Assembly: GCF_900120175.1 (NCBI RefSeq)
Contig: NZ_FQLF01000002.1
Coordinates: 1,054,001 to 1,118,000 of the forward strand
Direction of reading: 5' to 3'
DNA from: Oceanicoccus sp. KOV_DT_Chl
GTDB taxonomy: Bacteria > Pseudomonadota > Gammaproteobacteria > Pseudomonadales > Dasaniaceae
Length of the DNA stretch: 64,000 nucleotides
Part shown: piece after piece, positions 11,585 through 61,221 of the stretch
Layout: every line of letters begins with the position of its first letter
Position numbering within the stretch: the stretch's first letter is position 1
Translations under genes and position numbers: made by a program
The notes under the pieces: generated by a model
What the model was told of the DNA's origin: nothing
What the model saw: the letters and a program-made list of their open reading frames with translations, nothing else
Databases searched by the model: none

Positions 11585-11604
11585 ATCAGTCAAAACTGTT
11601 TGTT
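11585..11604. promoter_or_regulatory. 20-bp dyad, weaker member of the AACAGTCA-N4-TGACTGTT family
   Basis: ATCAGTCA-AAAC-TGTTTGTT, followed by more T. It matches the left half-site at 7 of 8 positions and the right at 6 of 8. It lies 150 bp before the lipoprotein gene and 27 bp after the TetR stop. Confidence 0.4.
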
Positions 11605-23985: not shown

Positions 23986-24100
23986 CTTATACTCCAAAAT
24001 ATAATTGTTATTTAATGAGCACTTTCATGACCTGTTTAGCAGGCATATTAATGGCGCCAATCAGCGGTAATAATCACAACAGACTATCGGAATCAAAATA

Positions 24101-24120
24101 AACAGTCAAATCTGATTGTT
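24101..24120. promoter_or_regulatory. 20-bp dyad AACAGTCA-AATC-TGATTGTT
   Basis: Near-perfect inverted repeat (one mismatch between arms) followed by a T run. It lies between the divergent GST (23985) and SDR (24239) genes, 119 bp before the SDR start. Member of the family also found at 33883, 37080 and 43111. Confidence 0.7.
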
Positions 24121-24238
24121 TTTTTTAGGGAGGTTTGATACCTTGATTTCTTACTAAAACACCCATAAAAAACAAGCTGCCCACAACCATGCCATCAGGC
24201 TCGACAGGGTTGCCTCAAATACTCACTAGGAGATCGCT

Positions 24239-25000
24239 ATGGACCTTGGACTATCTGGCAAAAAAGCCATCATTACTGGCTCTACTCGTGGCATTGGCCG
24301 CGCCATTGCTAATTTATTAGCCGATGAAGGCGTAGATGTCGCCATCTGCTCACGCAACCAGGCAGAAGTCGATGCAGCCATTAAGGAAATTGGTGCCAAA
24401 GGCGTCAAGGTAACCGGTGCCGTAGTTGATGTTGCAGATAAGGCTAGCTATCAGGCCTGGATTGCCAGTGCTGCTGCTGAATTAGGCGGTGTCGATATAT
24501 TTGTACCGAACGTCAGTGCTGGTGGTGGTGCCGTTGGCGACGAAGCCTGGCAGGCCAACCTGGATATTGACCTTTTAGGCACTACCCGTGGTATAGAAGC
24601 GTGCATGCCATTTTTAGAGAAATCGGACGCTGCTTCAGTGGTCATCATTTCAAGTACTGCAGGTGTAGAAACGTTCATGCAACCCGCTCCCTACAATGCT
24701 ATTAAAGGCGCCCTTATTGTTCACGGCAAGCAGCTCAGTCAAGCATTAGCCCCACAAGGCATTCGTGTTAACTGCGTATCACCCGGCCCAGTCTTTATTG
24801 AAGGCGGCGCCTGGGACTTTATCAAAAACAACATGGCTGAAGTATACGAAGGTACTCTGGCCCAGTGCCCTCAGGGCCGCATGGGTACTGCCGAAGAAAT
24901 CGCTAATAGCGTGGCATTCTTAGCCAGCCCTGCTGCTAGCTTGATCACCGGTGTAAATCTGGTGGCTGACGGCGGTTTCACCAAACGTGTGCAGCTGTAA
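24239..25000 (+). CDS. Short-chain dehydrogenase/reductase
   Basis: 253 residues, classical SDR. TGSTRGIG at 13-20, Ser139/Ser140, Tyr152 and Lys156 (YNAIK), and the C-terminal GVNLVADGG. The usual NNAG is replaced by PNVSAGG (about 90-96), a change seen in some 3-oxoacyl-reductase-like members. RBS CTAGGAG. First gene of a plus-strand series SDR, ThuA-like, acyl-CoA dehydrogenase, Rieske oxygenase. Confidence 0.9.
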   Translation: MDLGLSGKKAIITGSTRGIGRAIANLLADEGVDVAICSRNQAEVDAAIKEIGAKGVKVTGAVVDVADKASYQAWIASAAAELGGVDIFVPNVSAGGGAVGDEAWQANLDIDLLGTTRGIEACMPFLEKSDAASVVIISSTAGVETFMQPAPYNAIKGALIVHGKQLSQALAPQGIRVNCVSPGPVFIEGGAWDFIKNNMAEVYEGTLAQCPQGRMGTAEEIANSVAFLASPAASLITGVNLVADGGFTKRVQL

Positions 25001-25009
25001 TAACGGCAA

Positions 25010-25112
25010 GGAGGGTCTTCGACCCTCCACGCTACAATAAAATGGTTAAACATCGGGTAGCTGGTGGATCAAGCCCCACCCTACCAACATGGGCCGCAGC
25101 ATCATTGCGGCC
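25010..25112 (+). other. Three consecutive hairpins in the SDR-ThuA gap
   Basis: First GGAGGGTC-TTC-GACCCTCC (25010-25028). Second GGTAG-CT-GGTGG paired with CCACC-CTACC (25056-25085). Third GGCCGCA-N7-TGCGGCC (25092-25112), which is followed by a T-rich stretch and could terminate. Together they may set the relative output of the genes on each side. Confidence 0.6.
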
Positions 25113-25124
25113 TATTTATTAACG

Positions 25125-25152
25125 ATGTTCAAAACAACTATTGGTTGAACAT
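25125..25152. promoter_or_regulatory. Inverted repeat before the ThuA-like gene
   Basis: Perfect 8-bp arms ATGTTCAA / TTGAACAT with a 12-nt spacer, ending 13 nt before the ATG at 25166. Either an operator or a leader hairpin close to the ribosome binding site. Confidence 0.5.
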
Positions 25153-25165
25153 AAGAGTTGGGACT

Positions 25166-25927
25166 ATGAGTAAAAGTGATCGTTTAGACGTTTATCTGGT
25201 TGCCGGTGGAAAATACCATAATATTGACCATGCCCGGGTTGAGATTTTAAAGTTATTGGCTGAGCAGCCCCGCATTAAAGTTAAAGTCGGCGCTGATTAC
25301 AGCGACATCGATACCATTTGTGAATCTGACATCATCATTACTTATACCTGTGACGTTTTACCCTCCGATGAAGAAACTACCCGCCTCTGCGAATTTATTC
25401 GCAGCGGCAAAAAATGGTTCGCTCTGCATGGTACCAACTCGATTTTAAGGTTCCTTGAACCCGATGACGGTGGTGAATTTAAAGTTGACTGCCCGGAAGA
25501 AAATATCGCGTTTATGGAAATGCTTGGCAGCCAATTCATGTCACATCCACCTATTCACGAATATGAAGTCGTGGCCACAGAGCCGGATCACCCCTTGGTA
25601 AAAGATATTCCGCCATTCAAAGTGGACGATGAACTTTATCTGTGTAAATTTCATGGCGAACACCACACACTGATGCACACCCACTGGTCAGACCACGTGG
25701 TGAACTTTGTTCGTGATGACTGGAAGAAAGATACCGACATACAACCTGTGCTTTACATTCATCCATACGGTGAAGGACAGGTACTCTATTTCACTCTAGG
25801 CCATTGTCGCGGCAAATATGACATGCAACCACTTATTGAAGAATACCCGGTACCAGAAGAAGGCGCTTGGCAGACAGAAGAGTTTTACGAAGTACTTCGT
25901 CGCGGCATCGTTTGGGCAATGAACTAA
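25166..25927 (+). CDS. ThuA-like domain protein
   Basis: 253 residues from ATG at 25166; upstream in-frame codons would run back through hairpins and are unlikely to be translated. ThuA-type features are RLDVYLVAGGKYHNIDHARVEIL, SGKKWFALHGTNS, HPPIHEYEVVATEPDHPLVKDIPPFKVDDELYLC and GEGQVLYFTLGHCRGKYD. The last two blocks are the most family-like. Different enough from 22482-23321 not to be a recent duplicate. Its place before an acyl-CoA dehydrogenase and Rieske gene suggests a catabolic role, but the reaction is unknown. Confidence 0.8.
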   Translation: MSKSDRLDVYLVAGGKYHNIDHARVEILKLLAEQPRIKVKVGADYSDIDTICESDIIITYTCDVLPSDEETTRLCEFIRSGKKWFALHGTNSILRFLEPDDGGEFKVDCPEENIAFMEMLGSQFMSHPPIHEYEVVATEPDHPLVKDIPPFKVDDELYLCKFHGEHHTLMHTHWSDHVVNFVRDDWKKDTDIQPVLYIHPYGEGQVLYFTLGHCRGKYDMQPLIEEYPVPEEGAWQTEEFYEVLRRGIVWAMN

Positions 25928-25936
25928 AACCCGCAG

Positions 25937-25954
25937 GGTGAATCTTGATTCACC
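25937..25954 (+). other. Short hairpin after the ThuA-like gene
   Basis: GGTGAATC-TT-GATTCACC, 8-bp arms, 10 bp past the stop and 52 bp before the acyl-CoA dehydrogenase. No T tract. Confidence 0.5.
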
Positions 25955-26005
25955 ATCTTCGCGGCAAAGCCCGCTCTGCGACATATTACATTTGAGGTCA
26001 TTACA

Positions 26006-27193
26006 ATGGATTTATCTTTCAGCCAAGAAGAGCTTCAGTTTCAACAAAAAGTTCGCCAGTTTCTTGCTGATAATCTGCCAGCGCATATTATTGCAGCCAC
26101 CAAAACCAATAGCAGCGTATTCGTTGAAAAAGATATTGCATTGGAGTGGCAGGCCATATTAGTGGCGAAAGGCTGGGCGGTTCCGCAGTGGCCTGTTGAA
26201 CACGGCGGCACCGATTGGACTCCCTCACAGAAGTACCTTTTTAGTAAGGAATGTTATCTAGCCGGCGCACCGATGCTAATCCCACTGGGTTTACTGATGC
26301 TTGCGCCAGTCATTATGGCATTTGGCACCGAGCAACAAAAAGCAGACATCCTACCCAAAATACTCAGCGGCGAAAATTACTGGTGTCAGGGGTATTCCGA
26401 ACCCGGTTCTGGCTCAGACTTAGCCAGCTTAAAACTCAAAGCCGAAGCCGATGGTGACGATTATATTGTTAACGGCTCAAAAATCTGGACCACACACGCC
26501 CATCTGGCTGATCAGATTTTTTGTCTGGTACGCACCGATAACACGGGCAAGCCCCAGCATGGCATCAGCTTTCTGCTAATCGATATGAACACGCCTGGAG
26601 TCACCGTTGAGCCAATTATTACTATGGCCGATGATCACGAAGTCAATCAGGTCTTTTTTGATAATGTGCGCGTGCCAAAAGCCAACCGTATCGGCGAAGA
26701 AAATAAAGGCTGGACTTACGCTAAATATTTATTGGAATTCGAACGGGGCGGCGGTTTCAACGGCGATCGTATCCGTCATGAATTAGGTCACTTGAAACAA
26801 TTAATAAAAGACACACAGGCCAGTACGCCTAGCTTTGACAGCAGCGGCAGTATTGCCCGCAAAGTTGCTAAAGTAGAAATTGATTTAAAAGCACTGGAAA
26901 TTACCGAGCTGCGAATCTTGTCTTCGGTCAGCGGCGGTGGCAACCCCGGCCCAGAGTCATCCATTATGAAACTGACCGGCACCAGTCTTGAGCAAACTAT
27001 TAACGAACTTGCTATGGACGTCATTGGCTACCAGGGGTTTGCCATGGATCCACCGGCAGATGGCAGCCCCTATCGCGCCGATTTCATTAGCTCTATTGTG
27101 CCGCGCTATTTGAATAACCGTGCCGCGTCTATTTTTGGTGGCTCGCAGGAGATTCAGCGCAACATAATTGCAAAAATGGTCTTAGGTCTTTAA
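26006..27193 (+). CDS. Acyl-CoA dehydrogenase
   Basis: 395 residues, full length. N-terminal helical domain LSFSQEELQFQQKVRQFLADNLP, FAD/substrate region WCQGYSEPGSGSDLASLK (about 126-143) and IVNGSKIWTTHA, and a C-terminal domain with GGSQEIQRNIIAKMVLGL. FAD enzyme that introduces an alpha,beta double bond into an acyl-CoA and passes electrons to ETF. The style (VPQWPVEHGGTDW) is that of the steroid/terpenoid side-chain group rather than straight-chain fatty acid enzymes. RBS TGAGG. Confidence 0.9.
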   Translation: MDLSFSQEELQFQQKVRQFLADNLPAHIIAATKTNSSVFVEKDIALEWQAILVAKGWAVPQWPVEHGGTDWTPSQKYLFSKECYLAGAPMLIPLGLLMLAPVIMAFGTEQQKADILPKILSGENYWCQGYSEPGSGSDLASLKLKAEADGDDYIVNGSKIWTTHAHLADQIFCLVRTDNTGKPQHGISFLLIDMNTPGVTVEPIITMADDHEVNQVFFDNVRVPKANRIGEENKGWTYAKYLLEFERGGGFNGDRIRHELGHLKQLIKDTQASTPSFDSSGSIARKVAKVEIDLKALEITELRILSSVSGGGNPGPESSIMKLTGTSLEQTINELAMDVIGYQGFAMDPPADGSPYRADFISSIVPRYLNNRAASIFGGSQEIQRNIIAKMVLGL

Positions 27194-27400
27194 TACCGCT
27201 TTAAAAATTTCGGCAACCGAAAATAGAACCAATATCGTTCTTTTCGGCCGACATGAAGAGACTCACTTTGCAATTTAGAAGTAATTAAAACACTGCGATA
27301 GTTTAAACGCAGATTATGCAGACTTAGATCAACAAAACAACAACGTATAAACATTACAATAAACACTCTAAATAGCATCCGTATTCCGCAGGAGACCATC

Positions 27401-28549
27401 ATGCAACGCCCCGGATTGATTCAAGAAATTAAAACGCTAATGGAGTTAGTGGCCAATAAGACCACTGTAATGACTGATAGCGTCATGGAAATTGACGTCA
27501 ACGAGTACTCCAACCCTGATCAATTTGAGCGCGAAAAATTAGAATTATTTCGCAACTATGCGCAATTTGTCGGCCCCAGCTGCATACTTCCAAACCCAGG
27601 CGATTATTTCACTTTCGATGATACTGGCGTGCCTATTTTGATAGTGCGTACAGCTGAAGGCGGCCTAAATGCTTTCGTCAATATTTGCTCTCACCGTGGT
27701 GCCCCATTGACTGAGGAAGCTTGCGGTCAGGCGAAAAAAGGTAAAATGTTCTCCTGCCCTTATCACGGATGGAGCTATAATCTTGAAGGTGATTTGATCG
27801 GCATTCCTTTTGGCAACGAAGGCTTTCCCGGTCTTGATCGCAGCACTCTTGGCCTAAAAAAATTACAGATTGAAGAAAAGTACGGCATGATATTCGTGAT
27901 GCCCAACCCTGAAAAAACCTTTGATATCGATGAAGTCCTAGGCGGCATTCAGGATCGCTTATCCGGCTTTGGCTTTGAAGATCATTACTATCTGGGGGCA
28001 AAGCAAGTTCACACCAACTTCAGCTGGAAGCTCAACATGGACACCTTCCATGAGTACTACCATTTTGAGTTTTTACACCCTAACAGCATTGCCACCATGG
28101 CCTACAGCAACATAGCCAATTACCTTCAGTATGGTCGCAACCATTCGATGGGATCACCTTCGTTACAAATTAATGATCTTAAAAATGTGTCCGAAGAAGA
28201 ATGGCAACCCCGTGAATATAGCTCCTACGTAAACTACATCTTCCCTAACACGGTTATTTTTGTCGTTAACGATCACTTTCAAACCTGGCGGGTATATCCC
28301 ATTAGCCCGGATCGCTCAGTGGTCTATCACAGTATGTTTATCCCAAACAAACCTAAAGATGCAGCCGAACAAAAAACGTTTGAAGACTATTTTCAGATGA
28401 TTAACGATGTTGCGGTGGCAGAAGATTACGGTTTAGTCGATAAAGTGCATCGTGGCTTACAAGCAGGCATTGATCGAAAAGTTATTATTGGCCGCAATGA
28501 GCCGGGCGTACAAAACATGCATCGTCAATTGCATGACATCCTCGGCTAA
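27401..28549 (+). CDS. Rieske non-heme iron oxygenase alpha subunit
   Basis: 382 residues. Rieske ligands Cys96/His98 (CSHRG) and Cys119/His122 (CPYHGW). The mononuclear iron site is in LNMDTFHEYYHFEFLHP, with the bridging Asp. RBS CAGGAGA fits the ATG at 27401. Shorter than the 460-residue copies at 38640 and 49568 and clearly another subfamily. Gap of 207 bp after the acyl-CoA dehydrogenase, so it may have its own promoter. Substrate unknown; needs a ferredoxin and reductase not encoded beside it. Confidence 0.9.
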   Translation: MQRPGLIQEIKTLMELVANKTTVMTDSVMEIDVNEYSNPDQFEREKLELFRNYAQFVGPSCILPNPGDYFTFDDTGVPILIVRTAEGGLNAFVNICSHRGAPLTEEACGQAKKGKMFSCPYHGWSYNLEGDLIGIPFGNEGFPGLDRSTLGLKKLQIEEKYGMIFVMPNPEKTFDIDEVLGGIQDRLSGFGFEDHYYLGAKQVHTNFSWKLNMDTFHEYYHFEFLHPNSIATMAYSNIANYLQYGRNHSMGSPSLQINDLKNVSEEEWQPREYSSYVNYIFPNTVIFVVNDHFQTWRVYPISPDRSVVYHSMFIPNKPKDAAEQKTFEDYFQMINDVAVAEDYGLVDKVHRGLQAGIDRKVIIGRNEPGVQNMHRQLHDILG

Positions 28550-31030: not shown

Positions 31031-31070
31031 AATTATTTCTCGCGTCTCATTTTTTAAATTATTAGACACA

Positions 31071-31442
31071 GCAATGTAAATTTCCCCGTTACATCGCTGC
31101 CGCCAACCCCCGTTAGCAATCAGCGTAGGAAAAGTGTAACCTATTCCTCACAAACAAAACAGTCTAGGTTGTTTTTTTATAAGCAAAGAAGGTATTAGAA
31201 TGAATAACTACCTTAAGCCTTATAGTTATGTGCTCGTTTCTGTCATCTAAAGAGCAGACACCCTGATGCTATAAGTAAAATAAAATACGTTTAAGCGTCC
31301 ATACCATGATTGCTTCAACCAACAGAGCCGAAAATAATTAGTTATATAAAAGGTTAAATTCTCCACTTATTGTTATTAAGAACAGATTTTATGTCATATT
31401 AGTCATTTTTTTAGGCCACAGTCTTTAAGGAATTCGAGCTCA
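31071..31442. other. Divergent control region between TonB receptor and TetR genes
   Basis: 372 bp, AT-rich. Contains a loose dyad near 31153-31173 (AACAA ... TTGTT), distantly like the 20-bp sites elsewhere but with different spacing. No gene was seen. Confidence 0.4.
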
Positions 31443-32123
31443 ATGTCGCAGCTAATATTAAAAGAACCCAATGAAGCAGCGCCTAATTGGCAAGCACAAA
31501 AAAGTGCCATGACTCGAGACAGTATTCTTGATGCAACGATCAGTGGCTTTATTAAACTGGGATACAACAAACTAACAACCACAAAAGTCGCCGATATGGC
31601 TGGCATATCAAGGGGGGCTATGCGTTATCATTTCGCCTCCAAAAAAGAACTCATCCAGTCCGCTATCATCCACTTGCACAAAAAGATGCTAAACGGCTAT
31701 GTAAAGAATATTTCGCTGATTCCTGATTCCCTTGCAGGTAGAGCGCTCATTCGCGCACGTGTGGATGCCTATTGGAACTACCTTAATAGTGATCTTTATC
31801 TCGTCTATCAAGAGCTTTGCTCATCAGCTCGAACGGAGCCTGAACTTAAAGAACCGCTAGATGATGTGATTAAAGATTTTGATGAGAGTGGCCGACAATC
31901 TGCGCTAAGCCTATTTCCTGAGTGGGATGAGACAAATAGCAGCCAGCTGTTTTTTATTATTGATACAACCCGATTTACACTAGAAGGGTTGGCCCGCTTG
32001 CAATGGCAAATATCAATAGATAGAGATGTGTTAGTTGAACGCCAATTAGAATATTTAGCTTTTTGTATCGAACAAATTGTCAATGATGACGGCAATACTG
32101 AGCTCTCTAAATTCTTTAGCTAG
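31443..32123 (+). CDS. TetR/AcrR family transcriptional regulator
   Basis: 226 residues. HTH with LTTTKVADMAGISRGAMRYHFASKKELIQSAI (about 45-76), then a helical ligand-binding half. ATG at 31443 is preceded by TAAGGAA. Divergent from the TonB receptor at 31030 and followed by convergent SnoaL and SDR genes. Effector unknown, probably a hydrophobic catabolite. Confidence 0.9.
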   Translation: MSQLILKEPNEAAPNWQAQKSAMTRDSILDATISGFIKLGYNKLTTTKVADMAGISRGAMRYHFASKKELIQSAIIHLHKKMLNGYVKNISLIPDSLAGRALIRARVDAYWNYLNSDLYLVYQELCSSARTEPELKEPLDDVIKDFDESGRQSALSLFPEWDETNSSQLFFIIDTTRFTLEGLARLQWQISIDRDVLVERQLEYLAFCIEQIVNDDGNTELSKFFS

Positions 32124-32777: not shown

Positions 32778-33548
32778 TTAATGCTTGGGAACCACGCCCT
32801 CAGTTATAGTCACTGTGTTATCAACCACCATTTCTGCACCGTTAACTGAAGCCGATTCATCCGACGCCAAAAACAGCACCATATTAGCGATATCAATGGG
32901 CTGCCCCACCCAAATACCATCCATCTCGGCGGCTGTTTTTGGGTCATGCGCACGCACTATATCCATCATTCCATGCAACATTGGAGTAGACATATTTCCA
33001 GGATGCACTGAATTACAACGAAACCCGTATCCCTCCTGAGAACTTAAACATGCAATGGATTTTGTCATGCCGCGAATAGCACTCTTGGAAGCCGCGTACG
33101 CAAAAATTTGCGGCCCGCCCTGAATACTTGCTGTAGAACACATATTAATAATTGAGCCGCTGTGTTGCTCTTTCATGACACGCACCGCATGCTTACAGCC
33201 GAAGAAAGTACCATCAGTCCCCACCGCATTAATTTTGCGCCAGAGCTCTTCACTGGTATTTTCAATACTCGCCAACTGCACGATACCCGCGCAATTGAGT
33301 AAAATATCCAGGCAACCAAAATCTGCGACCACCTTGTTAACTAATCCTTCCCACGCCTGCTCGCTAGTAACATCGTGTTGAATAAAAACCGCACCCTTAA
33401 TATTGGCCGCAGCCGCTATGCCCTGCTCAACATTAATATCCGTCATGACTACTTTCGCGCCTTCCTCCGCCAACCGCTGAGCGGAGGCCAAACCTAAACC
33501 CGAGGCAGCACCAGTAATAATCGCAACTTTATTCTCAACCCGTCCCAT
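32778..33548 (-). CDS. Short-chain dehydrogenase/reductase
   Basis: 256 residues. TGAASGLG at 12-19, NCAG at 85-88 (Cys replaces the second Asn), Ser138-type serine, Tyr151 and Lys155 (YAASK). Overall like cyclopentanol or hydroxysteroid dehydrogenases of catabolic clusters (NAVGTDGTFFGCKHAVRVMKE). NAD(P)-dependent alcohol oxidation. Confidence 0.9.
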   Translation of the reverse strand: MGRVENKVAIITGAASGLGLASAQRLAEEGAKVVMTDINVEQGIAAAANIKGAVFIQHDVTSEQAWEGLVNKVVADFGCLDILLNCAGIVQLASIENTSEELWRKINAVGTDGTFFGCKHAVRVMKEQHSGSIINMCSTASIQGGPQIFAYAASKSAIRGMTKSIACLSSQEGYGFRCNSVHPGNMSTPMLHGMMDIVRAHDPKTAAEMDGIWVGQPIDIANMVLFLASDESASVNGAEMVVDNTVTITEGVVPKH

Positions 33549-33882: not shown

Positions 33883-33902
33883 AACAATCAATCTGTACTG
33901 TT
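33883..33902. promoter_or_regulatory. 20-bp dyad AACAATCA-ATCT-GTACTGTT
   Basis: Member of the AACAGTCA-N4-TGACTGTT family, 39 bp before the ATG of the LuxR/MalT-type regulator. Its place suggests autoregulation. Confidence 0.6.
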
Positions 33903-33941
33903 TGTTGAATAAAAATTTATGTATTCAGCACAAGGGTTACC

Positions 33942-36715
33942 ATGGCAAAGGCAAAAATATCCGTAAAAAGTCCCTCTCAAGCGACTGAGATGCCATCTGG
34001 TGCCAGCTCTGAGATGCTACTTAATGCGTTTGCCCCCCCGTGCTGCCTGTACAAATTATTGCGCGCCGGTTACTGAGCAATCCATTTTCACTCACCGTTT
34101 TACCCCAGCTAATTACGCTGGAAGCCGCTGCAGGATTTGGCAAAACCTGCACTACACAATGGTGGCTACAAAACTCAGACCTTGAATACCGCTGGCTCAC
34201 ACTCGCTAATAGCACCAAATGGCAGCAGCATAATGCCCGGATTTTTTGGCAATACTTATTAGCCGCTTGCCAACAATTACTGCCTGACTTTATTTCACCA
34301 AACGCTGCAGCAGCCACCGACGAAGCCTTTATTGTTGGGTTTTTGAACGCCTTAACCACTAGTTGCAGTAACAATCCAGAGCAATCTTTTGTACTGGTAA
34401 TTGATAATCTTCACCATCTTGATGACGATCTCTTGCTCAAATGGCTAGATTTTTTTAGTAGCCACCTCCCCATTAATTTAACCCTGGTTTTATTGAGCCG
34501 CCGCAACATCACGTTAAAGCACCGCACCAGTCGCCTGGCCGCTGGCAAATTAATTAGTATTAATTCTCAACAATTAAGTTTTAGTGATGATGAGTCAGTA
34601 GAATTTTTACAGCATGCAATGGACGATGCCTCTATATGCACGATCACTAAAACCAGCTCGGAATTAATTGGCTGGCCACTAGGTTTAAAACTTGCCAGTC
34701 TGGACGCTGCGCAGCATTCAAATCAGGGACTGTCTAAACACCAAACACGGCTAATTCATAACTTTTTGATTGAAGATGTGTTCAGTGTTTTACCTCAACC
34801 ATTAGCCGACTTGGTTACTAACACTATTGGTTTAGCTCAGCTCAACCCGGAAGTCATTACTGAACTGGTCACTGGTATTAATGGTAATGACTGTGTTGAG
34901 CTACTTAAAACCAATGGCCTTTTTCTAACATCCAGCGTGGATAATGCGTTTTATTCTTATCAGCCATTATTTAGAACCGCAGTACTCCAGCACCTGCAAG
35001 ACAACGATGCAGAAACATATGTTCAGATTAGATCCAAGACAGCTACAGCACTTGAAAGCCATGGGTTTATTTTCGCAGCTATAGAGCAGCTAGTCGCTAT
35101 TGAGCAATGGACCCAGGCTAGCGCACTCATTATCAACGCTAGCATCGACCGTATCCGCTCTGGTGATCATCAATCTATTTACGAGTGGCTATCTCTACTC
35201 CCTAAGCACTGGCTTAGCCAAAACCCCAGACTGCTTTATCTCAATGTATTGACGGCAACCAGAACCCGTCATTTATCGCTGGACTCTCAATACTCGCAGC
35301 TCGATATTGCTGAACAAATTTTGTTAAACACTATTGAAACTGACAACAATCAAACCATTTCCCGAATACAGAATATTGCGTTTGATAACGCCAAAAACAC
35401 TACCGAATTGTTGGAAGAAATTTATAATTTACGCGCCGAACTGGCACGCAACCAGGGCCACTCTGAACAATACGAAAATATCTCCTGGGATACGGTAAGA
35501 CGCGCTTCAAAATCAAATTTACTGCTGGGCAGCGCCACTGACCTTGGCCGTGGCATGGAGCTGTACTTACGCGGAAAAACACAAGCAGCGGAAAGCGCTT
35601 TTGAAGATGCTATTCGCCACGCGCAACAGGAAAACTATCAACTAGTGCTGGTCATTGCCGCTAATTATCTAGCCATCGTCCTGCATATGATGGGACGCCC
35701 TCTGGATGGTATTCGTCGATTGGATAGCGTTCTGGAGTGGATAAAAACTCAGGACTTGCAACCCTTCCCTGGTACTTATTTAAACAAAGGTTGCAGTGCT
35801 CCTATTCATTGTGAACTCAACCAGTTAGAGCAAGCAGAAAAAGAATTAGCACCTTATTTAAATTTCGCTGCTAACACTGATCTGGAAGCAACACAACGCT
35901 ACACCACACAAATTATCGGCTTTCACTTATTGCGCAGCAAAGGTGAGTACGATCAAGCAGAAATGGCTCTGTCTAATGCACAAGCTATCGTGCTGGATGA
36001 ATTAGATAACTGGAACTGGTATATCACTCCGCTGGCCGCCTACCGCGCACACTTGGCTTTATTACGTGGCGACATAATAACCGCAGGTCAATGGGCAGAA
36101 TCCAGAGAACAACAGTTAATAAATGCGACTGAATTCAGAAGCGAAGAAGAACGTTTAATACTTGCCAGCGTATGGATTAAACAGTCACGTTATAAAGACG
36201 CACTGACATTATTAAACAAGTTGCGAAATTCTGCCGACATTGGCAACCGTATATTGCACAGTATAAAAAGTTTGATTCTGGAAGCACTTTGTCACTCCGC
36301 AATGAACAATAAAAGTTCAGCACAAACCGCTATACATAAAGCACTACAGATGGCGGAGCCCTGTCAATTCCAGCGTGTATTTCTTGATGAAGGTGACGAT
36401 ATAGCTCCCTTGCTGCAACTGGCGATTGAAAAAAACACTGCACCAAATTTCTGTCGTACGCTATTAAAGAGCTACACACAACATAATAAGCAAACGGTAT
36501 TTACTGGCCAAGGCGTTTTAATCGAACCACTCAGCAGCCGGGAAGTTGAAATCTTGCAGCGGGTTAGCGATGGTCTCAGAAATAAAGATATTGCCGAAAA
36601 TCTCTCGATCTCAATATCCACAGTGAAGGCCCATATCTACAACATATTTTCCAAACTGCAAGTTAAAAGCCGTACCGAAGCGGTTGCGCAAGGCCGTAAA
36701 CTCGGTATCACCTAA
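33942..36715 (+). CDS. MalT-type LuxR family transcriptional activator, frameshifted near its start
   Basis: About 924 residues once joined. ATG at 33942 (AAGGG 6 nt upstream) opens a 30-codon frame ending at LNAFAPP. One base added to the C7 run at 34033-34039 continues it into VLPVQIIARRLL, the usual lead-in of this family. Then come Walker A AAAGFGKT, Walker B FVLVIDNLHHLDD, a large helical/TPR-like sensor middle and a C-terminal LuxR HTH (LSSREVEILQRVSDGLRNKDIAENLSISISTVKAHIYNIFSKLQ). Such proteins bind ATP and an inducer, then activate catabolic operons. A 20-bp dyad before it is repeated before the operon that follows, making it the best candidate regulator. Confidence 0.9.
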
Positions 36716-36840
36716 TTCTAATAATCCAGAGCGACACAGTGAGGAAAAGTATTTTCCTTCAGCGTTTAACTAAAGCGTTCAACTCAGCACTTCGTATCAA
36801 TGAATTCCTGCCTGCGCGCATTACTGCCTGAGATAAATTA

Positions 36841-37000
36841 GCAGTTTTAGAGTTTCAGCCTCACTACTAGCACGAAACGTGTCGAAATAAAGTAGAGACT
36901 CAATTTTTTATTCGTCATTCCCGACTTGATCAGGGATGAGTTCGGCTTATTTATGGTGCTTTAGATTTAACCCGGACAGCAGTGCGCCTGTGGGAATGAC
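36841..37000 (+). repeat. Dispersed repeat, copy B, with short terminal inverted repeats
   Basis: An 87-bp core is bounded by GTCATTCCC (36914-36922) and GGGAATGAC (36992-37000). The core and the flank from 36841 (CAGTTTTAGAGT, ACGAAAC, GTAGAGRCTC) align with the opposite-strand copy at 49294-49515, and the core also with 21325-21380. No coding frame inside: a small non-autonomous element or REP-like repeat. Confidence 0.6.
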
Positions 37001-37079
37001 AAATGGTTTTAGCACATCACCCAGCCCTTTCTGCCTTCTCCATAAAATATTGATCTAGATCATTCTTACTCCAATTAAA

Positions 37080-37099
37080 AACAGTCAGTCCTGACTTTT
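37080..37099. promoter_or_regulatory. 20-bp dyad AACAGTCA-GTCC-TGACTTTT
   Basis: Same family as 24101 and 43111. It is followed by TTAATT, as is the 43111 copy. It lies 75 bp before the carotenoid oxygenase that opens the large catabolic operon. Confidence 0.7.
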
Positions 37100-37174
37100 T
37101 TAATTTCATCCTGATAGTATCTTTTTAACAGCACAATACTGTGATTAACGCATACGATATTTCAGGAGTATTTT

Positions 37175-38584
37175 ATGGACCTTAGCCGTTTTCCTTACTT
37201 GCAAGGTAATTACGCACCGGTTGCAACCGAAAATGATTTTGACCACCACGAGCTCACCATTGAAGGAAAAATACCGCATGATCTGGTCGGAGCATTTATG
37301 CGCAACGGGGCCAATACCGCCTATGAACCCAACCACTATGTGTACCCGCTAGATGGCGATGGCATGATTCACGCTGTTTATATAAAAGACGGCAAAGCGC
37401 ACTACCGTAACCGCTGGGTGCAAACCAGCCATCTAAAAACCGAGCGCCAATTCAATCGCACTCTATATGGCAGCTGTGGCAAATTAATGCCTGTTCCTCA
37501 GGAAGTCATTGACGCCGGCGGTGAACCCAACCCACTGCGTAATACCTCCAACACCAATGTCATTCAGCACGGCGGCAAGGTGCTTTCCATGTGGGAAGGT
37601 GGCTTCCCGCACTTAATGAGCCCAGGCCTTGATACTGTTGAATTACACGATTATGAAGGCGCCCTGAAGCCCGGTGATGCATTTTTTGCCCATCCTAAAA
37701 TCTGCCCCGATAGCGGCGATATGGTGACTTGTATTCAACGCTGGGAAGCGCCCTTCTTTACAGTAAAAATTGTTGATAAGAACGGACAAATAATCAATTC
37801 CATACCGGTCGATCTGCCAGCAAAAGCGATTATCCACGACCTGCAAATCACTGAAAATTACGTCATTATTTTTAACTCACCCGGCTTTCACGATCTAGAA
37901 AAAGCCAAAGCAGGTGCAGACCCTTTCCGTTGGGAACCCGAAAAAGGCACCCAGGTGATTGCCATACCACGTAAAGGTGGCGAGCCTATCTGGTTTCAAA
38001 CGGATGCTTTTTTTAGCTGGCACTTCTGCAACGGCTACGAGAAAGACGGAAAAATTATTGTCGACTATGTGTGGATGAAACAAATCCCTTTCACTCAGGC
38101 AATGGATTCCGGTCTGGAAAAACAAACTCGCAATATGCATCGCATGACCCTGGACCTGACAACCAAAGCCGTCGTCGATACCAAAATTGGCGACATTTAT
38201 TGCGAATTTTCCCGCTGTGCGGATAACCGCTGCGGCAAAGAATACCGCTATGGTTTTGCCACTGCGTCCAACCGTCAATGGGCTGATGCCCACGGTTATA
38301 ACTGCACCCTGCGTTACGATATGAATACCGGCGAACACCAACTATGGGAATACGGCCCAGAAGCAAACGCAGGGGAACCGGTACATGTACCTAACCCAAA
38401 CAGCGATAAAGAAGAAGACGGTTACATCATGTGCTACGTCTACAACCCGGGTGAAGATCCGTTTTTATCAATTTTGAGCGCGGGCAATATTGCCGCCGGA
38501 CCGATTGCCAAAATTCATATTCCAGTACGCGTGCCCAATGGTTTTCACGCTAACTGGATGCAGGATTTGCAACTTGGCGAATAA
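37175..38584 (+). CDS. Carotenoid oxygenase family protein
   Basis: 469 residues, soluble. The four iron histidines are His173 (FAHPK), His221 (IIHDL), His283 (SWHFCNGYE) and His458 (GFHANW). RBS TCAGGAG. It resembles the apocarotenoid/lignostilbene cleavage group. It opens a plus-strand series with Rieske oxygenase, P450, SDR and TIM-barrel isomerase (gaps 55, 36, 139 and 18 bp), preceded by a 20-bp dyad. This suggests that cleavage of a conjugated double bond is one step of a single inducible pathway. Confidence 0.92.
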   Translation: MDLSRFPYLQGNYAPVATENDFDHHELTIEGKIPHDLVGAFMRNGANTAYEPNHYVYPLDGDGMIHAVYIKDGKAHYRNRWVQTSHLKTERQFNRTLYGSCGKLMPVPQEVIDAGGEPNPLRNTSNTNVIQHGGKVLSMWEGGFPHLMSPGLDTVELHDYEGALKPGDAFFAHPKICPDSGDMVTCIQRWEAPFFTVKIVDKNGQIINSIPVDLPAKAIIHDLQITENYVIIFNSPGFHDLEKAKAGADPFRWEPEKGTQVIAIPRKGGEPIWFQTDAFFSWHFCNGYEKDGKIIVDYVWMKQIPFTQAMDSGLEKQTRNMHRMTLDLTTKAVVDTKIGDIYCEFSRCADNRCGKEYRYGFATASNRQWADAHGYNCTLRYDMNTGEHQLWEYGPEANAGEPVHVPNPNSDKEEDGYIMCYVYNPGEDPFLSILSAGNIAAGPIAKIHIPVRVPNGFHANWMQDLQLGE

Positions 38585-38639
38585 GTTATACGACATCCAC
38601 CGCAAGCCTCTGCGGATAACATAATTGTAGGAGAACACC

Positions 38640-40034
38640 ATGGATGCAAATACCAAAACATTAACAGCAGAACACATTGCCGCTCGCTCACCTGGGCCGT
38701 CCTATCAAGACTTACTCGATAAAGAAGTTAATCCAGTACCAGATAGTCTGCGCGAAAACACCAATCCCTATTTAGGCTCGGACAATTTATCGGTGGATCG
38801 CTATCTGTCGCGGGAATTTCATGAGCTGGAAGTAGAGCATATCTGGAAGCGCACTTGGCAAGCAGTGTGCCGTGTAACCGAAGTCGGCGAGCCCGGTGAT
38901 ACCTTTGTCTATGATATCGCCACTATGTCTATTGTAGTGACTCGCACTGAACAGGGCACATTAAAAGCATTTAAAAACGCCTGCCTGCACCGAGGTCGTC
39001 AGCTGGTAGATAAAACCGGCAACTACAAAGATTTACGCTGCCCCTATCACGCCTTCACCTGGAGTCTGGACGGTGAGTTCAAAGGCGCTCCCTGTAAATG
39101 GGACTTCCCCCATCTGGATGAAGACCAGTTCGGCTTACCTGAAGTGTTAGTAGATACTTGGGGCGGCTGGGTGTTTATCAATATGGATAGAAACTCCCAG
39201 TCTCTGCACGACTACTTAGGCGTGCTGCCAGCACATTTTGAACGGTGGAAACCGGAAAACGCTTACAAAATGATTCACGTTGAAAAAGTTATCCCCTGTA
39301 ATTGGAAAGTCGGCTGGGAAGCGTTTATTGAGTCCTATCATGCCGTTGCCACTCATCCGCAAATTTTGCCTTACACAGATGATGCCGATTCCCAGTACGA
39401 TGTCTGGGGGCCCCATATTAGCCGCACTATCACTGCGTTAGGTGTTCCCAGTTTCCACTTGAAGAATTTAGTGGACCAGGATGTGGTCGATACTATGCTG
39501 GGAGTTTCGCCTATGGTCGCTCGACCCACCGAAGCAGAAGTGCCAGCGGGAATGACTGCACGGGAATTTATCGGCCAGTTAAACGCTGACGAGTTCAGTA
39601 AAAATCACGACACCCGGCTGGACACCTTCGCCACTAATTCCGAGCGTATGGATTCTATTTTATATTCTATATTTCCCAACTTTGCGCCCTGGGCGGGCTT
39701 TCATCCCAATATCACTTATCGCTTTCGGCCTAACGGTGATGATCATACCAGTGCGCTGATGGAAATTATTGTGATTTGCCAACTGGCCAGCGATGCCGAG
39801 CGCCCCAAAGATGTTCCCGTGCGGCGACTGGGCGACAATGAATTATTCTCTCAAGCACCGGAACTCGGAGAAAGCTTAGGGACTATTTTCGATCAGGATC
39901 TATTCAATATGCCAATGATTCAAAAAGGCATGAACAATGTGGAATCTCGCGAGTTAATTCTGGCTAATTACCACGAAGTCAGAATTCGTCACTTTCATCA
40001 AACCATCGACAAATATATTAACGGCGAGCTGTAA
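38640..40034 (+). CDS. Rieske non-heme iron oxygenase alpha subunit
   Basis: 464 residues. Rieske ligands Cys115/His117 (CLHRG) and Cys134/His137 (CPYHAF). Mononuclear iron site EAFIESYHAVATHP (His234, His239). The N-terminal 50 residues before the domain (PSYQDLLDKEVNPVPDSL) are shared in style with the copy at 49568, so these two are the closest pair in the window. RBS TAGGAGA. No beta subunit, ferredoxin or reductase adjoins it. Hydroxylation of a cyclic or aromatic product of the cleavage step is plausible but not shown. Confidence 0.92.
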   Translation: MDANTKTLTAEHIAARSPGPSYQDLLDKEVNPVPDSLRENTNPYLGSDNLSVDRYLSREFHELEVEHIWKRTWQAVCRVTEVGEPGDTFVYDIATMSIVVTRTEQGTLKAFKNACLHRGRQLVDKTGNYKDLRCPYHAFTWSLDGEFKGAPCKWDFPHLDEDQFGLPEVLVDTWGGWVFINMDRNSQSLHDYLGVLPAHFERWKPENAYKMIHVEKVIPCNWKVGWEAFIESYHAVATHPQILPYTDDADSQYDVWGPHISRTITALGVPSFHLKNLVDQDVVDTMLGVSPMVARPTEAEVPAGMTAREFIGQLNADEFSKNHDTRLDTFATNSERMDSILYSIFPNFAPWAGFHPNITYRFRPNGDDHTSALMEIIVICQLASDAERPKDVPVRRLGDNELFSQAPELGESLGTIFDQDLFNMPMIQKGMNNVESRELILANYHEVRIRHFHQTIDKYINGEL

Positions 40035-40070
40035 TCGAGCTCTCGCTAACACCCGATACAGGAAACTATT

Positions 40071-41321
40071 ATGAGTAAATGCCCGGTAGATTTTAATTTC
40101 TTTGACGAAGAAGTCTTAAACTGTCCCTACGACTTTTACCAAACGCTGCAGGAGCAAGCCCCCGTCTATCAATTGCCTGACACCAATATTTTTATGGTGA
40201 CACGCCATGCTGATATTAGACAACTGTTAAAAGATACGGCGACCTATTCCAATAACTTTAATGACTTGCTTAAAGGCCCGGAACCAGCCCCGGAAGTCAC
40301 TGCCATCTATGCCAAAGCCTGGCAGCCGGTAGACACACTGGTGACCGCAGACCCACCAAAACATAAAACCTATCGCACCCTGGTCAACAAAGTATTTAAC
40401 GCTAAACGTGTTAATGCGATGGAAGCCTATATGAAAGAAATTGTGCATGAACTTATCGATAGTTTTATCGACAAAGGAGAATGTGATTTTGTCCGTGAAT
40501 TCACCACACCATTGCCCGTGTATGTGATCGCTGACCAACTCGGTGTACCGCGCAAAGACCTGGAGGAATTTAAAGAGTGGTCAGACTCCTTTGCCCGTCG
40601 ATTGAGCCAACTGGCAACACCGGCAGAACAAATTGAAGACGCTGAAAATATTGTAGCGTTTCAGTTTTACTTTGCCGACATGATTGCAGAACGTCGGAAA
40701 AACCCCAAAGACGATATGATCACCGATCTGGTTAACACCGTCATTGAAGATGCCGAAACGGGGGAAACTCGTCAGCTAAATATGGAAGAACTACAAAATC
40801 TGTTACAGCAGTTGATGGTGGCAGGTAATGAAACAACCACCTCGGCCATTACCAGCGGCATGGTTAGCCTGATCCAAAACCCTGAACAACTGCAAGCACT
40901 ACAAGATGATCCCGGTAAAATAGAAAATGCCGTCGAAGAAATACTTCGCATGGAATCACCCAGCGCAGGTATGTGGCGCGTAGTAAAAAAAGACAGCGAA
41001 TTTCAGGGCGTGAAAATCCCCAAGGACTCCTTGCTGATGTTGCGCTATCACGCGGCCAACCGCGACCGTGAACTATTTGACGATCCCAATACTATTGATA
41101 TCGAGCGCAGCAATGCCGGTGACCATATTGCCTTCGGCAAGGGTATCCACTTTTGCCCCGGTGCGATGTTGGCAAGAAAGGAAATGCTCGTCGCGCTGAC
41201 AGCATTGCTCGAAAGAATGACCCATTTTCAGATTGTTGAAGAAAAGTCAGATTTGAACTTCTGGCCTAATATTGTGCTTCGAGGAAGAAAGGGCCTCTAT
41301 CTCACGTTTGAAAAGCGCTAG
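40071..41321 (+). CDS. Cytochrome P450
   Basis: 416 residues, soluble bacterial class I type. Heme ligand Cys362 in FGKGIHFCPG, I-helix AGNETTTSAI (oxygen-activating Glu-Thr), K-helix ExxR as EILR. Needs ferredoxin and reductase partners. Clearly a paralogue of the P450 at 43179: both have MVAGNETTT and MWRV before the heme domain. 36 bp after the Rieske gene, in the same likely operon, with a hairpin just past its stop. Confidence 0.93.
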   Translation: MSKCPVDFNFFDEEVLNCPYDFYQTLQEQAPVYQLPDTNIFMVTRHADIRQLLKDTATYSNNFNDLLKGPEPAPEVTAIYAKAWQPVDTLVTADPPKHKTYRTLVNKVFNAKRVNAMEAYMKEIVHELIDSFIDKGECDFVREFTTPLPVYVIADQLGVPRKDLEEFKEWSDSFARRLSQLATPAEQIEDAENIVAFQFYFADMIAERRKNPKDDMITDLVNTVIEDAETGETRQLNMEELQNLLQQLMVAGNETTTSAITSGMVSLIQNPEQLQALQDDPGKIENAVEEILRMESPSAGMWRVVKKDSEFQGVKIPKDSLLMLRYHAANRDRELFDDPNTIDIERSNAGDHIAFGKGIHFCPGAMLARKEMLVALTALLERMTHFQIVEEKSDLNFWPNIVLRGRKGLYLTFEKR

Positions 41322-41326
41322 CAGCC

Positions 41327-41357
41327 CAGTCCTTACCGGCGACGCTGGTAAGGACTG
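41327..41357 (+). other. Hairpin after the first P450
   Basis: Perfect 11-bp arms CAGTCCTTACC / GGTAAGGACTG, 9-nt loop, no T tract. Possibly a 3-prime stabiliser of the upstream mRNA or a partial terminator before the SDR. Confidence 0.65.
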
Positions 41358-41460
41358 CTCTACCACACTATCTTCATAGACTAATCAAAAGTATGAGTCA
41401 TCTCGCGGCAACAACCGCTATGATTAAGCATCGATAATAAAAGCATCGGGGCAACATAGT

Positions 41461-42282
41461 ATGAGCAGATTCACAGGACACACCGTTATTGTCACCGGCG
41501 GCGCCAGCGGCATCGGCGAAGCTACCGTAAGAGCCATTGTGCGCGAAGGCGGTAAAGTACTGATCGCCGACCTGCAGGAAAAAGAAGGCGAGGCATTGGC
41601 GCAACAGCTAGGCGATGCCGCTATTTTTCAAAAAACAGATGTGACTAACGAAGCCGATATTATCGCCGCCGTTGCCCGCGCCGAACAAGCTCTGGGACCA
41701 CTGACAGGCATGGTTAACAATGCCGGCATTATTGGCGCTGTTGGCTCAATTACCGAAACCACCGTCGAAGCCTTTGATCGCACCATGGCGATTTTGTCAC
41801 GGGCAGTGTTCCTCGGCGTGAAACATGCCACCAAAGCGATGAAGCCCCACGGCAAAGGTGCCATCGTTTCACTGGCAAGCAGCGCGGGCGTGATGGGCGG
41901 CTTAGGCCCACACACCTATACTATGGCGAAACACGGTGTGGTCGGTTTAACCAAATCTGCCGCCAGCGAATTAAGTGGTTACGGCATTCGCATCAACGCT
42001 GTCGCCCCCGGCGGTACCGTGACACCACTGACGGCCGCACTCACCGGTGGCGACACCGAAGCAATAACCGAATTTATAAAATCCAGCACACCACTGGGTA
42101 TTCCATGCTTGCCTGAAGATATTGCTGGCGGTATTTTATACCTGCTAAGTGATGAAGCCCGTTTTGTTACCGGTCACACCTTAGCGATCGATGGCGGCAT
42201 TACTACCAGCGTTCTAAACACAAGCTTTCATCACGATGACTCCGAGATCCTGTTACACGCTGGCCAAAGAACAGAGCAATAA
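41461..42282 (+). CDS. Short-chain dehydrogenase/reductase
   Basis: 273 residues. TGGASGIG at 12-19, NNAG at 86-89, Ser141-type serine, Tyr153 and Lys157 (YTMAK), and GHTLAIDGG near the end. A 25-residue C-terminal tail extends past the usual SDR end. NAD(P)-dependent. Probably oxidises an alcohol formed by the P450 or Rieske enzyme. 18 bp before the TIM-barrel gene. Confidence 0.9.
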   Translation: MSRFTGHTVIVTGGASGIGEATVRAIVREGGKVLIADLQEKEGEALAQQLGDAAIFQKTDVTNEADIIAAVARAEQALGPLTGMVNNAGIIGAVGSITETTVEAFDRTMAILSRAVFLGVKHATKAMKPHGKGAIVSLASSAGVMGGLGPHTYTMAKHGVVGLTKSAASELSGYGIRINAVAPGGTVTPLTAALTGGDTEAITEFIKSSTPLGIPCLPEDIAGGILYLLSDEARFVTGHTLAIDGGITTSVLNTSFHHDDSEILLHAGQRTEQ

Positions 42283-42300
42283 TCTAGCAGAGCCAAGCTG

Positions 42301-43094
42301 ATGCCACTACTTTCACTAGCCGCCGGGGTTCTGCCCGATCACTCTGCAGTAACGCTAATTGAAAATGCAGCGGCGGCAGGGTTTGACGCGGCCGGAGTTT
42401 GGTACGATGCCGACACTTGGACCGACACCACCACAGAGCAAGTGTGTCAGGCATTGCAGCAACACCAACTATTTGCTCTGGATATTGAGCCGGTATGGTT
42501 CCACCCGGGTGAAGATAGCAACAGCCATCAGCACTTGGTTGAAGTCGCCAAGGCGATCAAGGCACGCAATATTCTTTGTGTTAGCACTGAACCGGAATTG
42601 ATTGATACCCAGCGTCGCTTTGAACAACTCTGCCAAAAAGTTGCAGGCACCGACATCAACGTCACTCTGGAGTTTTTAGCGTTATCCAGTATTAAAACCC
42701 TCGACCAAGCCTGACTGTGGTCAACACTGTCAACCATCCCAATGGCGGCATACTGGTCGATGCATTGCATTTACACCGCAACGGTCATACACCCAGCGAA
42801 CTTCTGACTATCAAGCCGCAACTACTGCCCTATTGGCAACTGTGTGACGCCAGCGCAGCTCAACCCAAAGCCGATGACATAGACGCTCTGTTAGAAGACG
42901 CCTTGCAGCAACGACTGCTGCCCGGTGAAGGCGAACTTCCCCTGCAGCAGCTCTATCATGTCATGCAAGATAAACCCATCAGCGTGGAGATTCGCTCTCG
43001 AGCCCTCGCCGCACACTACCCCACACCGCTAGCCCGCGCCAAAGCAGTGTATGACAGCACCCGCCTGTTTTTAGATCGAAGCCAGCAAGCATAA
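42301..43094 (+). CDS. Sugar phosphate isomerase/epimerase-like TIM barrel, frameshifted
   Basis: Two adjacent frames join into about 264 residues. The first ends LEFLALSSIKTLDQA and the second continues LTVVNTVNHPNGGILVDALHLHR, once one base is added near 42710 (GCC). Together they show the xylose-isomerase-like/AP-endonuclease-2 barrel metal sites: Glu in LEF, Asp in LVDALHLHR and Asp in QLCDA. Members isomerise or dehydrate small polyols and keto acids. The joined length is normal. Coupled closely to the SDR before it. Confidence 0.8.
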
Positions 43095-43110
43095 AAAGGA
43101 TGGTAAAAAT

Positions 43111-43130
43111 TACAGTCAGAGTTGACTGTT
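43111..43130. promoter_or_regulatory. 20-bp dyad TACAGTCA-GAGT-TGACTGTT
   Basis: Perfect 7-bp inner dyad ACAGTCA / TGACTGT, followed by TTTTAATT. It lies 48 bp before the GTG of the second P450, so that gene probably has its own regulated promoter although it closes the operon. Confidence 0.75.
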
Positions 43131-43178
43131 TTTTAATTGCCCCGCATAATTAGCCAAAAATTAGAATGGAGACACACC

Positions 43179-44435
43179 GTGACAGCACCAACCGTCAATG
43201 ACACTCGCGCTCTGGCCGATATGCCACTGTTTGATAACGAAACCCTGAAATGCCCCTATCATTTTGATAAAACCTTGCGCGAAACCGCTCCTGTTTTTAA
43301 GGACCCCACTTCCGGTGTGTATGTCGTCTCTACCTATGATTTAGTCCGCGAAGCGCATAAAAAACCGGAAGTCTTTTCCAATGATTTTGCCCTGGCCAAA
43401 GGCGCCGGCGAAAGTATTGATGAAGACGTAGCAGCGGTCATGAGCCAAACCTATGATTTAGGTAAAGGCACACTGTTAACCGTCGATGATCCTGTACACA
43501 AAACCTATCGCGATGAATTAAAAGATTTTTTCCTACTCAATAACGTCGCCAAATACCGCCCGTGGATCACCGAGCTGGCAGATGACTTATTTAGCCAATT
43601 GAAACTGGGGGAACCGGTTAATTTCGTTGAGCATTTTACCCGCCCACTGCCTTTGTCGGTGATTATGCACGTGCTGGGTATGCCGCTGGAAATGCGCGAT
43701 TTGGCCTTTAAATGGACTGTCGATAATGTCACGGTATTATCGCAAGTCGGCGACAAACAAACACTGCTAGCCGCCCACGCAGGTTTAAAAGATGAATATG
43801 ATTGGTTTGTGAATGCGCTCAATGAGCGCCGCGAAAACCCGCGTGATGATTTATTGAATCTGGTAGCACACGCTACTTACGAAGGCCGCCCACTCACTAT
43901 TGAAGAACAGTTATCACACTGCACCCAATTTATGGTAGCCGGTAACGAAACCACCACAGCAACTCTGGCTGAAGGGATGCGTCAACTTTGTCTTAACCCT
44001 GAACAGCAAAAAATGATTCGTGAAGATCGATCGTTGATTCCAAACCTGGTGGATGAATCGTTACGTGTAGCCTCCCCTACCTCCAATATGTGGCGCGTAG
44101 CTAAAGCCGACTACGATCTTGGCGGCACTACTATCCCTGCCGGCAGCATGGTGCTATTAAAATACTTTTCATCCAACCACGATGAAAGCATGTTTGAAAA
44201 CCCGCTGGAATTTGATGTCACCCGTGCCAATGCCAAGCGCCACATTTCTTTCGGTTTTGGTTCGCATGTATGCATAGGCCAGCATTTGTCCAAATTGGAA
44301 ATGACCATCGCCTGGGAAAAGCTGTTTGACAGCAGCAGCAACTTTACTTTGGCCTGCGACCCCAGCGAACTGGAATATATGCCCAATATTTTATTGCGCG
44401 GGCTGGAAGAGATACCGGTTATTATTGAAGCGTAA
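43179..44435 (+). CDS. Cytochrome P450
   Basis: 418 residues from GTG at 43179, preferred because GGAGA (43168-43172) stands 6 nt before it. Reading from TTG at 43137 would start inside the dyad promoter. Heme ligand Cys365 in FGFGSHVCIG, I-helix AGNETTTATLAE, ExxR as ESLR. Paralogue of 40071-41321. Soluble class I enzyme. A long hairpin terminator follows, marking the end of the catabolic block. Confidence 0.92.
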   Translation: MTAPTVNDTRALADMPLFDNETLKCPYHFDKTLRETAPVFKDPTSGVYVVSTYDLVREAHKKPEVFSNDFALAKGAGESIDEDVAAVMSQTYDLGKGTLLTVDDPVHKTYRDELKDFFLLNNVAKYRPWITELADDLFSQLKLGEPVNFVEHFTRPLPLSVIMHVLGMPLEMRDLAFKWTVDNVTVLSQVGDKQTLLAAHAGLKDEYDWFVNALNERRENPRDDLLNLVAHATYEGRPLTIEEQLSHCTQFMVAGNETTTATLAEGMRQLCLNPEQQKMIREDRSLIPNLVDESLRVASPTSNMWRVAKADYDLGGTTIPAGSMVLLKYFSSNHDESMFENPLEFDVTRANAKRHISFGFGSHVCIGQHLSKLEMTIAWEKLFDSSSNFTLACDPSELEYMPNILLRGLEEIPVIIEA

Positions 44436-61201: not shown

Positions 61202-61221
61202 ACAAACCGTATTGCTTGTTT
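61202..61221. promoter_or_regulatory. 20-bp dyad, weak member: AACAAACC-GTAT-TGCTTGTT
   Basis: Outer arms AACAA / TTGTT match the family, but the inner bases differ. It lies between the divergent Rieske gene (61136) and the secreted-protein gene (61308). Confidence 0.35.

Follow-up and report, generated by a model that had tools for sequence, protein, structure and literature searches.

Conserved dyads in an Oceanicoccus oxygenase locus as probable operators of a TetR-clade repressor

Which protein reads the short dyads that stand before several catabolic genes of Oceanicoccus sp. KOV_DT_Chl, and do these dyads join the genes into one regulon? The question arises from a 64,000-nucleotide stretch of this genome (contig NZ_FQLF01000002.1, positions 1,054,001 to 1,118,000; hereafter the window), in which a first-pass annotation described 20-bp dyads and assigned them to a MalT/LuxR-type regulator encoded among them. 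The dyads are conserved in other genomes, cluster in this one, occupy a recurrent position in promoters, are linked to a clade of TetR proteins, and occur in the promoters of the TetR genes themselves. It is highly probable that they are operators of an autoregulated repressor of this clade, most likely released by a ligand, that controls a set of RPE65-type oxygenase, P450, Rieske oxygenase and SDR genes; binding, repression, ligand and substrate are what we infer here.

Dyad sites in the window

The window was scanned on both strands for the 20-mer AACAGTCA-N4-TGACTGTT, with up to three mismatches allowed. Six matches were found, compared with a mean of 0.28 in shuffled sequence, and none of 100 shuffles reached six. 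The sites at 24101, 37080 and 43111 each differ from the 20-mer by one base, those at 33883 and 11585 by three, and the sixth, at 20448 and also with three mismatches, lies within an open reading frame (ORF). Scoring by 7-base half-sites (AACARTC and GAYTGTT, a gap-6 dyad being AACARTC-N6-GAYTGTT) leaves no mismatch at 24101, one each at 33883, 37080 and 43111, and two at 11585 and 61201. The site at 33883 is therefore better than the strict consensus suggests. Thus, of the four 20-bp dyads originally described, three fit closely, while 33883 does so only as a pair of half-sites; as to the two looser copies, 11585 is a weaker site, with a second reading given below, and the one placed at 61202 remains weak (two mismatches). 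The TTAATT described after 37080 and 43111 is present there, and was not found after 24101 or 33883.

The dyad at 24101..24120 lies between divergent GST (23350-23997, minus strand) and SDRb (24239, plus strand) genes, and a site of this type recurs before the SDRb homologues of six other genomes. The site at 33883..33902 is located between SDRc and the MalT/LuxR gene; in genome G039, a similar but weaker site stands before SDRc. The dyad at 37080..37099 precedes the RPE65 operon and has a counterpart in G005 with two mismatches (L050:3242), and that at 43111..43130 precedes P450b, homologues of which are preceded by sites in G005 (L048:12674) and G039 (L044:15243 and 15290). A site absent from the first-pass list was found at 31158..31173, between a TonB receptor gene (28715-31069, minus strand) and TetRb: it is a gap-2 dyad, AACAGTC-N2-GGTTGTT, with one mismatch. 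The weaker site downstream of TetRa (10941-11558) and before the ORF at 11755 can also be read as a gap-2 dyad with two mismatches (11585..11600, ATCAGTC-N2-AACTGTT), and this 16-mer is identical in G005 (L189:1432), beside a TetRa orthologue.

Conservation and clustering

An 18-mer core with up to one mismatch proved a poor marker, since it occurs in 25 of 57 relatives and its reversed control in 18 of 57; the exact 20-mer was chosen for this reason. The core matches in ten stretches (L051-L054 and L056-L061) appear to be due to chance; at E<=1e-20, these stretches contain no homologue of window genes other than a Rieske match of 27% identity in L060. Of the 390 genomes of the order that were searched, 14 have the exact form, AACARTCA-N4-TGAYTGTT, and one has its reversed control. 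These 14 genomes hold 17 exact sites, 12 of which face homologues of window genes: seven face SDRb homologues (own genome included), two an acyl-CoA dehydrogenase homologue, one P450b, one RPE65a together with a TonB receptor, and one lies at the edge of a ThuA homologue. A further site faces a homologue of the molybdopterin oxidoreductase located about 20 kb left of the window, one a 35% TonB-receptor match and one a TetR homologue, and the last two (in G140 and G323) have no homologue of the tested genes.

The dyad persists in other genera and families, where a loss of the sites among relatives had been named as a ground for abandoning the idea of a regulon. The proposal that the dyads tie separate genes together is also supported: one candidate regulon would comprise the SDR operon, the RPE65/Rieske/P450 operon and the second P450, as well as loci that extend as far as 69 kb to the left of 24101.

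Within the 4.83-Mb genome, the 18-mer core with no or one mismatch occurs three times, each time in the window, while two mismatches reach background (14 places versus 19 for the reversed control). Half-site pairs with up to one mismatch number seven at gap 2 and nine at gap 6 (reversed controls three and seven). It is their clustering, rather than the total of 16, that is impressive: nine fall within 88 kb (C2:1008796-1097130), five of them in the window (24101, 31158, 33883, 37080 and 43111). A binomial estimate for this clustering is 2.4e-12, with limits that were chosen once the sites were known. Outside the cluster, five of the seven sites lie within an ORF of at least 100 amino acids. 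Among eight of the nine clustered sites, one lies in a 115-residue reading frame, which overlaps the gene of a second TetR protein, TetR-X; the ninth (24101) lies between ORFs. A perfect gap-2 dyad, AACAGTC-N2-GACTGTT, was also seen at G000:C7:89300-89315 (L173) with no clear adjoining gene, and is possibly an outlier or a chance site.

The regulator

According to the first-pass annotation, the MalT/LuxR-type protein binds the dyads, including its own promoter; in such a model it would activate the pathway. Its gene sits among the dyads, and its ORF (34040-36715, plus strand) encodes a LuxR-type helix-turn-helix (HTH) and MalT-like repeats. These domains (GerE and TPR_MalT) and a score of 226.7 bits with the NCBIfam MalT model liken it to MalT-type LuxR regulators, although it falls below the model's cut-off of 537. 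A dyad precedes the gene here (33883) and also its homologue in G005 (30% identity), where it stands about 40 bp before the start and is held in common with a divergent RPE65 gene; for these two genomes alone, the MalT-type protein may be the binder. Across the exact-dyad genomes, however, the protein does not travel with the dyad. A homologue at E<=1e-20 is present in four of the 14 exact-dyad genomes, with at most 33% identity outside its own genome, and is missing from the other ten, eight of which have the dyad before homologues of window genes. At E<=1e-30, a homologue is found in five of 57 relatives, own genome included, and not in G039 or G012, both of which have exact dyads. Binding by this protein is thus very improbable, and linkage points to the TetR clade. 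Judging by the promoters, the MalT/LuxR gene is probably a target of the regulon instead, because the dyad precedes it both here and in G005. The site before the G005 homologue also weakens the idea that 33883 serves SDRc alone.

The regulator frame was first given as 33942-36715, which does not hold: a stop codon ends the frame from 33942 after only 44 residues, and it is at 34040 that the long ORF starts. Near the N-terminus (33942-34080), the gene shifts reading frame in the assembly, by sequencing error or decay.

A search of the 390 genomes at E<=1e-40 found the TetR clade, which includes TetRb of the window (31443-32123, plus strand), in 26 genomes: 10 of the 14 with an exact dyad and 16 of the 376 others. 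In nine of these ten, the TetR gene and an exact dyad share a contig and are 4 to 85 kb apart, while in G297 they are on separate contigs. In G195, two dyads stand directly before a weaker TetR homologue.

The promoters of the TetR genes provide further evidence. For eighty loci around TetR-clade genes of other genomes (L077-L107 and L108-L156, the best 80 of 458 relatives), the analysis covered the 250 bp that precede the matched TetR region, and these regions were kept out of the site matrix. All 49 loci of L108-L156 have a gap-2 or gap-6 pair with up to three mismatches, compared with 68 of 1795 windows elsewhere in the loci; among Markov sequences, 18 of 490 have one. Lowering the limit to two mismatches leaves 17 of 49, 37 of 1795 and 0 of 490, respectively. 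Gaps of 4, 5, 7 and 8 give from zero to three of the 49 at the looser threshold. In the X-type loci (L077-L107), a gap-2 pair with up to two mismatches precedes 12 of 31 genes, against 19 of 1205 windows and 1 of 310 Markov sequences, and a gap-6 pair precedes one of 31. The TetR-X gene of this genome (G000), G005 and G039 has a gap-2 dyad (one or two mismatches) 30-33 bp before its start. A palindromic candidate operator in the gene's own or a divergent promoter is thus found clade-wide; for TetRb, the dyad at 31158 lies 285 bp before the start and nearer the divergent receptor gene.

SDRc homologues are present in 43 of the 80 TetR-clade loci and SDRb homologues in 34, and many of L109-L155 have TetR divergent from SDRc, followed by SDRb, ThuA and a Rieske gene. 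Before SDRc, toward the divergent TetR gene, two dyads (up to four mismatches each) are 19 bases apart in 21 of 21 loci examined (L109-L156), and would form a tandem operator. The clade is also present on metagenome contigs titled Klebsiella pneumoniae (L105, L112 and L117), a label that looks wrong from their gene content.

TetRb has a TetR_N DNA-binding domain (Pfam PF00440, 38.6 bits, cut-off 24). Its AlphaFold model (mean pLDDT 88.6) has the all-helical TetR fold, and the top listed PDB matches are TetR-family regulators. Rv0078 (5wm9, 6c31) and EilR (5vl9) resemble the predicted fold with a TM-score of about 0.6 by query, and the HTH is matched by sequence; their identity to TetRb over the fold match is 16-18%, and hence neither ligand nor operator can be inferred from them. 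Members of the clade are marked by W-Q-[AS]-[QR]-K-S near the N-terminus and by a recognition segment, S-R-G-A-M-x-x-H-F.

Several points weigh against the assignment to the TetR clade. The Fisher p values for co-occurrence (2.3e-10, or 2.4e-9 without the own genome) are optimistic, since the genomes and loci are related. Exact dyads are lacking in 16 of the 26 TetR-positive genomes; conversely, no clade member reaches E<=1e-10 in G140, G323 has weak hits only, and G012 has only a C-terminal piece. The recognition segment is invariant in 19 aligned members, including six that were found without it as a search pattern, but the other 13 (from L077-L156) were fetched by patterns that hold it, so that their invariance is partly selection. 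The threshold of three mismatches is not fully specific, given that gap 3 yields 21 of 49 in L108-L156 (0 of 49 at two mismatches), and 19 of 31 X-type loci have no upstream gap-2 pair with up to two mismatches. Lastly, TetR-X (C2:1044.1 kb; L017:10112-10806) shifts frame in its HTH part in the assembly, through error or decay; the TetRb frame is open, and intact relatives of TetR-X are present in G005 and G039.

The 16 TetR-positive genomes without an exact dyad, and the four dyad genomes without a strong clade member, would suit an unlinked regulator that binds the dyads and travels with the TetR clade and the pathway. That TetR genes of many genomes have the half-sites in their own promoters argues against this. 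A search at E<=1e-15 in the four other genomes tested found no homologue of TetRc, which was discarded as the binder. TetRa has matches at this threshold in 11 of the 14 dyad genomes. The one in G005 is an orthologue with 75% identity, and nine further genomes have paralogues with 29-41% identity, frequently more than one each; TetRa is an unlikely binder. An unlinked regulator is accordingly given little credence.

Two spacings of one half-site

Half-site pairs with up to one mismatch were counted in the 80 loci at gaps from 0 to 15. Gap 2 has seven pairs in L077-L107 and 26 in L108-L156, gap 6 has 34 and 19, and gap 10 has 13 and one. Gap 14 has two and one and gap 12 none and one, the remaining gaps have none, and resampled sequence yields no more than 0.7 pairs per gap. 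The pairs at gap 10 appear to arise where half-sites overlap. Gap 6 is the spacing of the catabolic promoters, while gap 2 is that of the X-type TetR gene promoter and of several RPE65 promoters.

In 53% of the half-sites from 51 distinct gap-6 sites (up to one mismatch, a set that includes chance sites), G occupies position 9, and the gap-6 consensus is therefore AACARTCAGNNCTGAYTGTT. This sequence contains CAG-N6-CTG twice, offset by four bases, whereas a gap-2 site contains it once. It is tempting to speculate that one TetR clade reads both spacings, with a gap-6 site made of two overlapping gap-2 units that take up two dimers and a gap-2 site taking up one, which would explain both. In this tentative model, the regulator's gene would have sites for one dimer and the catabolic promoters sites for two, with graded control of an undescribed and perhaps terpenoid- or apocarotenoid-like degradation pathway in Gammaproteobacteria as the outcome. 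That one half-site occurs at two spacings can be tested directly.

Promoter architecture and the proposed regulon

In an alignment of nine promoters, a TTTG-N-TA block is conserved along with the dyad and with the ribosome site and start, little is kept between these elements, and the dyad covers the predicted -35 box in all nine. In the window, the predicted promoter (24116..24144, plus strand) consists of a -35 TTGTTT (24116-24121) in the right half-site, 17 bases, and a -10 TACCTT (24139-24144) preceded by TG. A -35 TTGTTT within the right half-site, a spacing of 17 bases and a TAC(C/T)TT-like -10 would fit all nine.

In the proposed mechanism, a TetR dimer would occupy the -35 region of SDRb-type promoters and would also sit at the promoters of the RPE65 and P450b genes and of the regulator itself. 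Because the dyad covers the predicted -35 at SDRb-type promoters, RNA polymerase would be kept out as long as the dimer is bound. Release by a compound of the pathway would switch on the SDR, ThuA, acyl-CoA dehydrogenase, Rieske, P450 and RPE65 genes; release at 33883 would do so for the MalT/LuxR gene. The binder in this genome would be TetRb and/or its relative TetR-X.

The same clade might instead activate, from a site centred near -40. In favour of this, TTGTTT would be a poor -35, and about 40 bases separate the centre of the dyad from the predicted start downstream of it; dyad position alone does not tell repressor from activator, which also counts against the repressor interpretation. 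Dyads in the TetR promoters, by contrast, suit negative autoregulation, and most studied TetR proteins are repressors according to PMC3511530. Activation is therefore considered improbable.

In its mode of action, a repressor regulon of this kind would resemble TetR regulons already known from catabolism. According to PMC9973270, AtuR and RdmA are TetR repressors of terpene or diffusible signal factor (DSF) catabolism in Pseudomonas; each lies by a catabolic cluster, with inverted repeats in promoters and release by a substrate-like compound, as is proposed here. Their operator (AGCAAGCGCTTGG/CCAAGCGCTTGCT) is unrelated to AACARTC, and their enzyme set is a different one. Membership of the AtuR regulon was rejected, since the dyads, compared by eye with the operator AGCAAGCGCTTGG given in PMC9973270, do not match it. 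No description of the present operator or regulon was found in the openly licensed literature, a scope that leaves out most subscription journals, or in passages of PMC9973270, PMC9430723 and PMC12997858.

With this proposal, an oxygenase set (RPE65-type, Rieske and P450) that is widespread but uncharacterised gains a candidate regulator and operator, and a plausible misassignment to the neighbouring LuxR-type gene is corrected. The operator can be used to list pathway genes in genomes that have the TetR clade.

Genes of the locus

The gene positions of the first-pass annotation are otherwise borne out, with the SDR gene at 24239, the RPE65 operon at 37175 and the second P450 at a mechanical start of 43137. 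SDRb, ThuA, acyl-CoA dehydrogenase and Rieske oxygenase genes, identified by Pfam, occupy 24239..28549 (plus strand). SDRc (32778..33548, minus strand) is the gene whose homologue adjoins a TetR gene in many other loci. RPE65b, Rieske, P450a, SDRd and two small genes follow at 37175..43094 and P450b at 43179..44435 (both plus strand). For P450b, the GTG at 43179, after a GGAGA stretch, is a likelier start than the TTG at 43137, and the dyad then ends 48 bp upstream.

The proteins encoded close to dyads are RPE65-type oxygenases, P450s, Rieske oxygenases, SDRs, ThuA, acyl-CoA and aldehyde dehydrogenases, a molybdopterin oxidoreductase and TonB receptors. The top models for RPE65b are apo-carotenoid cleaving dioxygenase (293 bits, below its cut-off of 675) and lignostilbene dioxygenase (237 bits, below its cut-off of 800). 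That the substrate is terpenoid-like is a guess. The window contains three RPE65-type oxygenase genes (3014-4642, 9383-10828 and 37175-38584), and more copies occur about 55-65 kb upstream (L015), with three P450 and at least four Rieske genes alongside.

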